Part shown: positions 45,801 to 48,406 of the stretch, piece after piece
Layout: each line of letters begins with the position of its first letter
Numbering within the stretch: the first letter of the stretch is position 1
DNA from: Achromobacter sp. B7
GTDB lineage: Bacteria; Pseudomonadota; Gammaproteobacteria; Burkholderiales; Burkholderiaceae_B
DNA: 64,000 bases
Direction: 5' to 3'
NCBI RefSeq assembly: GCF_003600685.1
Contig: NZ_CP032084.1
Location: forward strand, 1,116,001-1,180,000
The notes under the pieces: model-generated
What the model saw: only the letters and a program-made list of their open reading frames with translations
Database searches by the model: none
What the model was told of the DNA's origin: nothing
Translations under genes and position numbers: made by a program

Positions 45801-46451
45801 TCACCCCGCGTCGCGCGCCACCAGGCTCTTCAAGCCATACAAGCGTTCGCGATGCAGCGTCGTGGCCAAGGGTTCGGGCTCGCGGCCCAGCGCGACGTAG
45901 TCGTCGGGAATCTGCGCAATGGCCGCGCGCATGGCGCTCGCGTCCGCCTGCCACCATTGCACCAGCATGCGATCGGGGTTGTAGACATCCAGCCCCTGGC
46001 GCCGCAATTCCGACCGGTTGAAATCCTTCAGGTTCCAGGTCAGCACCTGCACCACGGGCGGCTGCTGCCAGCCACAACGCGCGCGGCGCGCCAGGCCGGC
46101 GGCAATCACGTGGAAGTCCTTGGGGTCGCTGTAGCGCAACGAGGCCTCATACACCTGGGTGTCGGCTTCATTGGCGTCGGGAAAGCGCGCGTTCATCTCG
46201 GCCCAGAACTCGGCCAATACCTCGGGCGGAATATCCCAGATGCGCGACGCGTTGCGGCGCCATTCCTCGCCAATGCGTTCGGTCCACACCGGCGTGTACA
46301 CGCCGGCATCCGCCAGACGCAACAGCAACCGCCGCAAGATGCCGGACATCAGGACGCAGGCGTCCAGGACGATGAAAGGGGGGCGGGCGGCGGGGGCGTT
46401 CAAGACGACAGGAAGAAAGGGAAAACCGGGGAAAGCGCAGGGCAGGCGCAA
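45801..46451 (-). CDS. PIN-domain protein (putative RNase), no antitoxin seen
   Basis: Up to 216 residues. The PIN fold is suggested by FIVLDACVLM (first Asp of the acidic site), LRYSDPKDFHVIAAGL (Asp/His block) and a third acidic region at WNLKDFNRSELR. PIN proteins are metal-dependent RNases; VapC toxins cut tRNA or rRNA. The start is unclear: TTG at 46451 and a TTG about 17 codons later both lack a ribosome site. It is 41 bp downstream of the tRNA-Leu(UAA) gene on the same strand, and no antitoxin gene fits between. Confidence 0.75.
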   Translation of the reverse strand: MRLPCAFPGFPFLPVVLNAPAARPPFIVLDACVLMSGILRRLLLRLADAGVYTPVWTERIGEEWRRNASRIWDIPPEVLAEFWAEMNARFPDANEADTQVYEASLRYSDPKDFHVIAAGLARRARCGWQQPPVVQVLTWNLKDFNRSELRRQGLDVYNPDRMLVQWWQADASAMRAAIAQIPDDYVALGREPEPLATTLHRERLYGLKSLVARDAG

Positions 46452-46492
46452 GACAGGCGACCCGAAAGGCCGATGCCTTTCGATCGCAAAAG

Positions 46493-46804
46493 TGGTGCCC
46501 GAGACCGGAATCGAACCGGTACGACCTTGCGGTCGAGGGATTTTCTTACCACTTCGGCTTTCGCCGCCAGCGCGGGTGCGCTGTTCGTGGTCTGGAGCAC
46601 GCCTTCACCATAGCCTTGCGGCCTTAGGTGCCCGCCGTCTGCTCTCTACACCTTCCCCGATTTTTCAATCGGGGCTTGGCTCGGCGTTGGCTCGGAACAA
46701 GTCCAGGGCATTCGCCGAGTTTGACGGGCTACACCTTTGAAGTTTCCTCCAAAGGGCTCAAATTTTTTCAAGTCCCTTGTGTCTACCAATTTCACCACTC
46801 GGGC
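46493..46804 (-). tRNA. tRNA-Leu(UAA) interrupted by a group I intron
   Basis: The 5' exon is 46770-46804 (35 nt) and the 3' exon 46493-46544 (52 nt, with encoded CCA). Joined, they give a perfect class II tRNA: acceptor GCCCGAG/CTCGGGC, anticodon stem AGGGA/TCCCT with loop CTTAAAA (anticodon TAA), variable stem CGACC/GGTCG, T arm ACCGG/CCGGT with TTCGATT. The D arm is GTGGTGAAATTGGTAGAC. The break falls between U34 and A35. A -10-like TATAGT lies upstream (plus-strand 46842-46847). A hairpin CGAAAGGC/GCCTTTCG follows the 3' end. Confidence 0.95.
46545..46769 (-). ncRNA. Group I self-splicing intron (IC3-like) in tRNA-Leu(UAA)
   Basis: A 225-nt intron with no ORF. P1: 5' exon AAGGGACTT pairs with guide GAG-CCCTT (one bulged A) and gives the required U-G wobble at the splice site. 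P2 is CCTTTG...CAAAGG capped by GAAA. Core: AGGTGTAGAGAGCAGACGG (R, plus 46635-46656) and GAAGGCGTGCTCCAG (S, plus 46592-46606), with P7 pairing GAGCA/TGCTC. A P9-type hairpin has a GAAA loop. The last intron base is the obligatory G (46545). As remembered, the core closely resembles the Azoarcus tRNA-Ile intron, with compensatory changes in P7. Confidence 0.93.
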
Positions 46805-46870
46805 GATGCGCGGCCCTTTGCAAGGGTCGGCAGCGGGCGTGACTATAACATCCCGCCGCGCGCGTTCCGG

Positions 46871-48406
46871 CTACTTGCGGCCGAACAGCCGTCCCAGGAA
46901 GCCGGCGGGTTTGGCGGCGGCCGCTTCCGCTTCCAGCGCGTTCTTCATCGACAGCTCCTGAAAATACGGCTTGCCGTTTTGCTGGTAGGACGAGGAGGCC
47001 TGGCGGTAGGCCACGGCCGATTCCGCGTGGCGCTTCATCTGGCCGTAGATCCGGCCGCGCGCGAACAGCGCCCAACTGCGGTAGTCGGGGTCCAGCGCCA
47101 GCAGCCGGTCGCAAGCGGCCAGCCCTTCGTCATTGCGTTTGGCGGCGATCAGCGCGTTGATGCGCTCGGCGTGCAGCGGGCCGCTGTCAGGCCAACGTTC
47201 CAGGGCGGTGTCGGCGTAGGCCACGGCCTCGTCGGCGCGGTTCAAATGCGTCAGCGCTTCGATGCGGACGCGACGCCATTTCAGCCAGTCCGGGTCCAGC
47301 GAAATGGCCACCTCGGCCAGCGGCAGCGCTTCGTCGTAGCGTTCCAGGTAGTTCAGCATGTCGGCCGCGTTGCCGGGCAGGAAGTCGTCGCTGGGGGCGA
47401 GCTCATAGCCTTTCAGGTAGTACGCCAGCGCGGCTTCCCAATTGCGCTGGTCGCGCTGGGCGTTGCCCGCCACGAACAGCAGCTGCGCGTCGCCGCTGTC
47501 AAGCGGGTCCAGGCCGATCAGCGCTTCTTCGGCAAGTTTCGGTTCGCGGCTGCGCACGTATTCGCGCGCTTGTTCCTTGCGGCCCTCCCAGCCGGTGTCG
47601 GACAGCGTATCCAGATGGCGCCACAAGGGCACGGCTTCGTCCGCGCGACCCAGCCGGTGCAGCGACCGCGCCTTGCCTTCCAGCGGCCAGTCCCAGTCGG
47701 GCTCGCGTCGCAGCAGGCTGGTCCATTCCTCGATGGCGTCGGCGTGGCGTTCCATGGCTTGCAGGCAGGACGCGCGGTTGTGCTGGATAGCGTTTTGTTC
47801 GCCCAGGATGGCGCGGGCGCGGTCGAACATGGCGATGGCGTTTTGCAGGTCGCCCAGGCGCCGGTAGTTATTGCCGGCATCGTACAAAAAGCCGCCGTTG
47901 TTGGGCGCCAGCGCGACGGCACGCTGGTGGTAGGGCAGGGCCTCGGTATAGCGACCGGCGTTGTGCAGGTTTGATCCGATATAGCAGTGCGGCGCGGCGG
48001 CGGCCGAACGCACTTGAGAGGCGCGGGTCCAGCTGGCAATGGCGTCTTCCAGGCGGCGGTCGTTGATCAGCAGGTAGCCTTCGGCCATCAGCAGGCCAAA
48101 GTGCGAAGGCGCGCGTTGGCGGGCATCGCGCAATTCACGCCACGCCTGCTGCTTGTCGCCGTCGTCGTATTGCACCACCGCCTGCACGGCGATGGCGTCG
48201 CTGCATTGCGGGTCCAGCGCCAGCGCGCGCGCCAGATCGGCATCACGCTGGACATAGGCTTTGCGTTGCGCGTGGCAGCGGGCACGCAAGGCCCACGCGG
48301 TGGCCGATGCCGGCTGTTCGCGCACGGCCTGGTCGCACAGCGACAGCATTTTTGGCAAGTCGCTGCCGTCTTCGGCGCGGTGGATGGCTTCGATCAAGGC
48401 GGACAT
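46871..48406 (-). CDS. TPR-repeat protein
   Basis: A 511-residue soluble protein made of about ten tetratricopeptide-type helical pairs. Clear units include NLHNAGRYTEALPYHQRAVALAP, NNYRRLGDLQNAIAMFDRARAI and ADMLNYLERYDEALPLAEVAISL. No signal peptide or membrane helix, and the C-terminus is GFLGRLFGRK. TPR proteins act as scaffolds; the partner is unknown, but the adjacent RDD/zinc-ribbon membrane protein (57 bp upstream in the same direction) is a candidate. Confidence 0.88.
   Translation of the reverse strand: MSALIEAIHRAEDGSDLPKMLSLCDQAVREQPASATAWALRARCHAQRKAYVQRDADLARALALDPQCSDAIAVQAVVQYDDGDKQQAWRELRDARQRAPSHFGLLMAEGYLLINDRRLEDAIASWTRASQVRSAAAAPHCYIGSNLHNAGRYTEALPYHQRAVALAPNNGGFLYDAGNNYRRLGDLQNAIAMFDRARAILGEQNAIQHNRASCLQAMERHADAIEEWTSLLRREPDWDWPLEGKARSLHRLGRADEAVPLWRHLDTLSDTGWEGRKEQAREYVRSREPKLAEEALIGLDPLDSGDAQLLFVAGNAQRDQRNWEAALAYYLKGYELAPSDDFLPGNAADMLNYLERYDEALPLAEVAISLDPDWLKWRRVRIEALTHLNRADEAVAYADTALERWPDSGPLHAERINALIAAKRNDEGLAACDRLLALDPDYRSWALFARGRIYGQMKRHAESAVAYRQASSSYQQNGKPYFQELSMKNALEAEAAAAKPAGFLGRLFGRK

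Follow-up and report, generated by a model that had tools for sequence, protein, structure and literature searches.

The locus and its detection

The window, by which we mean the whole 64-kb stretch of DNA that was analysed, carries on its minus strand a complete tRNA-Leu(UAA) gene (46804-46493) made of a 35-nt 5' exon, a 225-nt intron and a 52-nt 3' exon that includes the CCA (Table 1). Run in intron mode on positions 46400-46900, ARAGORN returned one gene, a tRNA-Leu with anticodon taa at complement 46493-46804, and placed the 225-nt intron after tRNA position 35, which is U34. The acceptor stem (GCCCGAG/CTCGGGC, 7 bp) is perfect, the anticodon stem reads AGGGA/TCCCT, the loop obtained by joining has 7 nt and the CCA is encoded. 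The sequence and the intron-mode call confirm the starting point of the original prediction, namely two minus-strand tRNA halves with matching acceptor stems, 225 nt apart, that give a 7-nt loop with a UAA anticodon when joined. A simple scan returned no sigma-70-like promoter for the gene. Directly downstream, the minus strand encodes a PIN-domain-like protein (45801-46451; PF13470, 24.2 bits, below the cut-off of 27).

It had also been anticipated that default tools would pass over the gene, and they did: without intron mode ARAGORN reported nothing at 46493-46804 and found only three other tRNAs in the 64-kb window, and Rfam at its gathering threshold returned the same three tRNAs for the window, neither the split tRNA nor the intron. 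The Rfam group I model (RF00028, Intron_gpI), originally proposed as a check, matched positions 46592-46779 of the minus strand when given a stretch of 461 bases (42.7 bits, E 1.1e-9); the score stays under the curated cut-off of 50 bits. Given the whole Achromobacter genome, the same model returned nothing at E up to 1, and given the 3.3-kb window locus (one of 15 loci) it found no match at E up to 0.01, so that the match on 461 bases depends on little sequence being supplied. At a lax threshold RF00028 was found in 11 of the 15 loci, with scores between 29.2 and 50.2 bits; the four without a match include the window locus. Because 18 of 20 related loci fall below the Rfam threshold, which was reached only by a cyanobacterial (91.3 bits) and a viral intron (50.2 bits), this cut-off appears too strict for these introns. 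As a control, the model matched in 8 of 14 control genomes, in two of them above the cut-off. Since RF00028 was silent on the intron's own genome even at E up to 1, we made our own core model of 140 positions, termed R1.

The folding of the 316-nt precursor lies 4.5 sd under that of 100 dinucleotide shuffles, none of which (0/100) is as low. Given this fold, the recurrence of the arrangement in all 43 genomes of the genus and the covariation over 34 sequences described below, the split tRNA-Leu(UAA) gene is not a chance arrangement.

Table 1. Exons, intron and predicted intron elements of the tRNA-Leu(UAA) gene, in window positions.
Feature	Position	Strand	Basis or remark
5' exon of tRNA-Leu(UAA), last base U34	46770..46804	-	ARAGORN intron mode; sequence
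Group I intron, 225 nt, IC3 type by motifs	46545..46769	-	Rfam, ARAGORN intron mode, alignment/structure
3' exon of tRNA-Leu(UAA), first base A35, CCA encoded	46493..46544	-	sequence; ARAGORN intron mode
P1	46757..46772	-	C32 U33 U34 pair with GAG (46759-46757) of the internal guide sequence
P10 strand UUU	46760..46762	-	pairs with A35-A37 of the 3' exon (46544-46542); follows the 3' exon in relatives
P2 hairpin, GAAA loop	46734..46755	-	alignment and structure
P3, 5' strand CCCGUC	46723..46728	-	alignment and structure
P4-P5 domain	46680..46719	-	alignment and structure
P6a hairpin CCCCGAUU/AAUCGGGG	46655..46674	-	alignment and structure
P7, 5' strand GAGCA	46640..46644	-	pairs with UGCUC; compensatory changes in relatives
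P3, 3' strand GGCGGG	46631..46636	-	alignment and structure
P8 with CCUAAG...UAUGG	46606..46630	-	alignment and structure
P7, 3' strand UGCUC	46595..46599	-	alignment and structure
P9.0, P9a and P9	46548..46591	-	alignment and structure
Terminal guanosine of the intron	46545	-	ARAGORN intron mode; G also in family loci

Intron fold and splice sites

The 90 intron loci accepted in the family (see below) were reduced by similarity to 47 representatives, 34 of which entered an alignment that included a short stretch of exon on either side (19 Leu(UAA), 9 Leu(CAA), 4 Ser(UGA), 1 Ile(CAU) and 1 Thr(UGU)). RNAalifold alone recovered P1, P2, P3, P4, P5, P6, P8 and P9, with at least one double-change sequence in 47 of 68 pairs; P7 and P9.0 were put in by hand, giving a structure of 75 pairs. 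Over the 34 sequences 94.4% of its cells are paired and 332 cells are double changes, against a shuffled mean of 78.2 (0/500 shuffles as high) and at most 81 in slid controls, a structure derived partly from the same 34 sequences being favoured over its slid versions. The interlocked P3/P7 core is present, with 99.5% of P3 and 100% of P7 cells paired and double changes in 4 of 6 and 3 of 5 pairs, respectively. In P7 the Leu rows have GAGCA/UGCUC, the Ser rows GACUU/AAGUC, and the Ile and Thr rows GACUA/UAGUC. P10 varies with the 3' exon: most Leu rows have UUU/AAA, the Ser rows UC/GA and the Thr row UAC/GUA; its first two pairs hold in 34/34 rows and the third fails in 6/34. The group I intron that had been proposed between U34 and A35 is thus supported both by ARAGORN and by this covariation.

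At the 5' splice site, P1 ends in the wobble pair U34.G46759 and is extended by GAA/UUU. The same U34.G pair is found in the window and in 25 of the 34 aligned rows, the other nine, all Leu(CAA), having C34-G. Among the family loci, which come partly from the same genome and are not independent counts, the 5' exon ends in CUU in 60/60 Leu(UAA) and in CUC in 22/22 Leu(CAA) loci, and the GAG guide and the terminal G occur in all of both sets (60/60 and 22/22). Among the R1-confirmed pattern matches listed, 128/129 end in G and 128/129 have a guide of the form GRG near the start. The window intron has a small core without P5abc, GAAA loops L2 and L9, and in P8 the sequence CCUAAG...UAUGG, an 11-nt receptor motif; these are traits of subgroup IC3, and by them the intron is provisionally assigned to a group I architecture of the IC3 type.

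Decoding of UUA

It is well established that the codon UUA can be read only by a UAA tRNA. The genome contains 56 other tRNA matches, all read by ARAGORN, in which the Leu anticodons are TAG, CAA, CAG (three times) and GAG; a TAA anticodon is absent from them, in keeping with the suggestion that the split gene may be the only UUA decoder. The intron is present in all 43 genomes of the genus examined (two of which are 57% and 78% complete). A pattern for the intact gene, with one mismatch allowed, gave 44 matches in these 43 genomes, all of them tRNA-Leu(CAA); an uninterrupted Leu(UAA) was not found within this distance of the pattern, which more divergent copies would escape. Outside the genus the intron-bearing Leu(UAA) is not always the sole copy: one genome (G136) has it together with a Leu(UAA)-like site that is uninterrupted and departs from the pattern by one mismatch. 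UUA makes up 7 of the 1754 Leu codons in 47 window ORFs picked by a GC3 rule and occurs in 6 of the 47, so that any essentiality of tRNA-Leu(UAA) would rest on few codons.

Proposed splicing of the tRNA and alternatives to it

We are highly confident that this locus is a chromosomal tRNA-Leu(UAA) gene of Achromobacter, split between U34 and A35 by a group I intron, probably of IC3 type, whose predicted splicing would give a UAA anticodon. After transcription, the intron RNA would fold into a P3-P9 core with the guanosine site in P7, the GAG of its guide sequence would pair with C32-U33-U34, and a guanosine cofactor would cut after U34. The 3'-OH of U34, kept beside A35 by P10 (UUU/AAA) and the anticodon stem, would then attack after the terminal G, joining the exons and forming the UAA anticodon, and the spliced product would be the sole tRNA found in the genome able to read UUA. 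We infer that the gene is transcribed, that splicing is catalysed and that tRNA-Leu(UAA) is essential.

It could be argued that the group I fold is real but that splicing needs a host protein, the bare RNA not being self-splicing. We consider this improbable: the full core is conserved with P1, P10, P7 and the terminal G, and the Azoarcus tRNA-Ile intron, which also counts against this possibility, self-splices. According to the part of the literature consulted, the Anabaena tRNA-Leu intron likewise self-splices (PMC2729099), whereas proteins are required by some group I introns (PMC3984707). Far less likely still, the gene could be a dead tRNA relic and UUA be read by other means; the rarity of the codon would suit such a relic, but not the perfect acceptor and anticodon stems, the encoded CCA, the covarying intron, the presence of the gene in 43/43 genomes of the genus and the failure to find another UAA tRNA. 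A chance neighbourhood of two unrelated tRNA fragments 225 nt apart, such as an attachment-site relic, deserves virtually no credence, for although the genome contains one lone 3' half of a tRNA-Leu (G000:C1:5546940-5546989, where ARAGORN found no tRNA), the halves at the split gene complement each other perfectly and their spacer is a group I intron whose position is conserved in relatives. Both the chance and the relic readings were rejected on the ARAGORN intron call, the 43/43 genomes, the introns of relatives and the covariation over 34 sequences.

The lone 3' half (L079) lies about 17 kb from the tRNA-Leu(CAA) at 5529908 and might be a remnant of an island inserted at that tRNA.

Distribution of related introns

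A query of 240 bases (the intron plus 15 exon bases, E 1e-5) matched 81 of 268 genomes and 20 of 43 genera of the family, part of these matches being introns in other tRNAs. At E 0.001 the R1 core model matched 63/399 genomes from the order and 61/369 from the class, some of the matches being weak. An intron-mode scan of 95 loci gave 90 accepted introns, four uninterrupted Leu(UAA) genes and one locus without a call; a 469-nt tRNA-Pro in L039 was false and was removed before counting. Loci L202 and L242, called Pro and Gln, read better as Ile(CAU), and shifting the boundary by one base in the sole Thr locus (L169, Thr(UGU)) places it at U34/G35. In a second set of 55 loci, 34 were called Leu(UAA) with intron, 3 Ser(UGA), 2 Leu(CAA) and 2 Arg(CCU); four Met calls were read as Ile(CAU) and two others were reassigned to Ile, which left 6 ambiguous loci and 2 without a call. 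In one locus (L083, G044:C2) a related intron of 285 nt was called at U33/C34 of a tRNA-Met/Ile(CAU), a third position in that tRNA loop.

Among the matches listed in a pattern scan of named genomes, R1 confirmed 100 of 119 stretches, and 17 of the 19 unconfirmed ones were marked as intact genes, a second motif lying downstream of them. The confirmed matches among those listed come from Achromobacter, Variovorax, Cupriavidus, Pseudomonas jinjuensis, Stutzerimonas, Lysobacter, Rhodanobacter and Thioploca, and also from Caulobacter, Brevundimonas, Sphingomonas, Bradyrhizobium, Bacteroidota, one Blastocatellia genome and cyanobacteria. Related introns thus sit in the Leu(UAA) of beta-, gamma- and alphaproteobacteria, Bacteroidota, one Blastocatellia genome, cyanobacteria and viral contigs. 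R1 confirmed 29 of 38 viral pattern stretches, several of them near-copies judging by equal scores. Eight of 13 viral loci examined were called Leu(taa) with an intron, and six of these eight have three or more other tRNAs nearby (contigs L362, L367, L368, L374, L375 and L398). In five contigs filed as viral (L370, L371, L383, L394 and L396) the tRNA and intron score like those of Achromobacter (145.7 to 155.1 bits); these are possibly prophages with host flank.

Copies were also found on plasmids and in phages. An Escherichia coli plasmid (L176:2995-3327, LR890662.1) carries an intron-bearing tRNA between mph(A) and aac(3)-IId; this locus and a second plasmid locus, L177, were called tRNA-Stop(tta), yet their flanks read as Leu(UAA). 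Of 72,556 plasmid records, 1317 contain DNA like L176, and 1255 of them carry 80% or more of it; among 5426 complete E. coli genomes the corresponding counts are 645 and 621. At the ten E. coli places listed there is no annotated feature under this DNA. In the tree of 82 introns (see below) the L176 intron falls together with those of Caulobacterales/Devosia (support 95, starred), a hint that its flank came from an alphaproteobacterium. On a plasmid of Cupriavidus sp. KK10 (L182:1501-1713) the 5' exon and much of the intron are copied with no recognisable 3' exon, and ARAGORN found no tRNA; this copy is probably a relic.

In Gordonia phage Daredevil (L178:1340-1651) a tRNA called Lys(ttt) contains a related intron of 238 nt (106.5 bits), near integrase and HNH genes and with no annotated feature under the match. 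In a 595-kb uncultured phage (L179:440-1062, LR756511.1) an ORF overlaps a related intron core (49 bits), and after this core comes a 3' exon resembling that of tRNA-Leu; no tRNA was called there by ARAGORN. The ORF presumably carries an HNH-like motif, and a homing endonuclease in a tRNA intron is possible.

Relationships and lateral transfer

Trees were built from hand-chosen rows, 100 in the first tree, 61 of these for the core and 82 of these for full introns. In the quick tree of 82 introns the clade of the window intron, which was named for testing only after the first tree had been seen, consists of 26 rows (21 beta- and gammaproteobacterial Leu(UAA) and 5 Leu(CAA); SH-aLRT 96, starred). 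The five cyanobacterial rows and the four Ile(CAU) rows each form a clade of their own, and a Thioploca Leu(UAA) intron falls outside the window clade; this tree has 79 inner branches, 14 starred and 47 drawn open. A union of the window clade and the cyanobacterial introns was not rejected (p 0.605 with 61 rows, p 0.819 with 82), nor was its union with Ile(CAU) (p 0.925, 82 rows), and the likelihoods of these joined trees lie above those of the quick trees (61 and 82 rows for the cyanobacterial, 82 for the Ile(CAU) clade). A single clade of all Leu introns had p 0.032 on the core (61 rows) and p 0.581, not rejected, on the full introns (82 rows).

Leu(CAA) introns stand in two places in the tree of 100 rows; their union in one clade was not rejected with 61 rows (p 0.902) and was found with support 78 with 82 rows. 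They sit inside the Leu(UAA) clade, which suggests that the intron jumped from the UAA to the CAA tRNA. Since the six gammaproteobacterial members of the window clade as one clade were not rejected (p 0.502, 61 rows), a single transfer between beta- and gammaproteobacteria would suffice. Two Stutzerimonas species have introns that share 90.2% (L347) and 92.7% (L291) identity with that of the window (exons 93.1% and 88.5%, respectively); for Achromobacter pulmonis the figure is 89.8%. A gammaproteobacterial intron as close as that of a congener suggests lateral transfer, perhaps of the whole gene, although strong constraint on the intron could keep these sequences alike instead. The lineage to which the window intron belongs is thus one of beta- and gammaproteobacteria; tRNA-Leu(CAA) is a second home of it, and it may be able to move between species.

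We advance a broader reading tentatively, leaning slightly to the doubtful side because of the possible constraint on the intron and the unrejected single gammaproteobacterial clade: rather than an inheritance from cyanobacteria, Leu(UAA) introns would be a widespread mobile family. It would have spread by lateral transfer among Pseudomonadota, Bacteroidota, plasmids and phage tRNA arrays and, in Burkholderiales, have jumped from the UAA to the CAA tRNA. The jump would keep the guide sequence, with C-G replacing U.G, and the cyanobacterial and plastid intron would be one branch of the family, which annotation would miss because the RNA model and the tRNA finders do not see it.

Comparison with known tRNA introns

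The intron is of a known kind, in a genus for which we found no literature record, and in a position that looks essential. Among the top-ranked results of open-access full-text searches there was no report of Leu(UAA) introns in betaproteobacteria. In the parts consulted, reviews record group I introns of bacterial tRNAs from cyanobacteria and from a small number of alpha- and betaproteobacteria (PMC4033280, PMC11408192), every phage intron observed up to 2014 is placed within a protein-coding gene (PMC3984707), and a 2025 database is described that has 42,459 group I introns (PMC11835236). The sole UUA decoder found for the genus, invisible to the default tools used, fills a gap in its tRNA set, and the distribution of Leu(UAA) introns in bacteria emerges as under-recognised. 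The related loci provide new lineages for comparison with the textbook ancient intron of cyanobacteria and plastids, the Leu(CAA) introns, whose 5' splice site has C-G, offer a natural way to test the U.G rule, and the phage and plasmid copies are plausible vehicles of spread.

The Stutzerimonas introns, of which the literature consulted makes no mention, have gammaproteobacterial hosts, whereas Achromobacter is a betaproteobacterium. The original prediction had listed the known proteobacterial tRNA group I introns as those in Ile(CAU) and Arg(CCU); for Leu-TAA there is a proteobacterial precedent in print: the part of PMC4853749 consulted reports interrupted tRNA-Leu-TAA and tRNA-Arg-TCT in Thiomargarita and, from earlier work, in BOGUAY. 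As in the window, a putative group I intron lies there in a proteobacterial tRNA-Leu-TAA, but the hosts are gammaproteobacteria and, in that part of the source, the intron type is not determined. The novelty of the locus is therefore smaller, and its context larger, than first held.

Group I introns in tRNA-Ile(CAU), such as that of Azoarcus, resemble the window intron by a similar small core that can be aligned with it and by their occurrence in the same bacterial group, the betaproteobacteria; they differ in being inserted after U36, in another P7, in a shorter P9 region and in forming their own clade. The description of the window core as Azoarcus-like therefore fits loosely: the introns can be aligned and a joint clade is compatible with the data (p 0.925), but the window intron belongs to a beta/gamma Leu clade of its own. 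In the text consulted, tRNAscan-SE 2.0 is described as not built for finding group I introns in bacterial tRNAs, and tRNA-Ile2 introns are reported from Acidovorax and Burkholderia (PMC8450103). With the cyanobacterial intron, for which general statements are found in the accessible parts of PMC4476775 and PMC2729099, the window intron shares the tRNA and the site, and the cyanobacterial loci found match the R1 core model. The site had been called the cyanobacterial one; it is indeed the same U34/A35 junction, but it is not peculiar to cyanobacteria, being occupied in other phyla too. RF00028 scores one cyanobacterial intron at 91.3 bits against 42.7 for that of the window, and the two kinds form separate clades in the trees, though a joint clade is compatible with both row sets tested (p 0.605 and 0.819).
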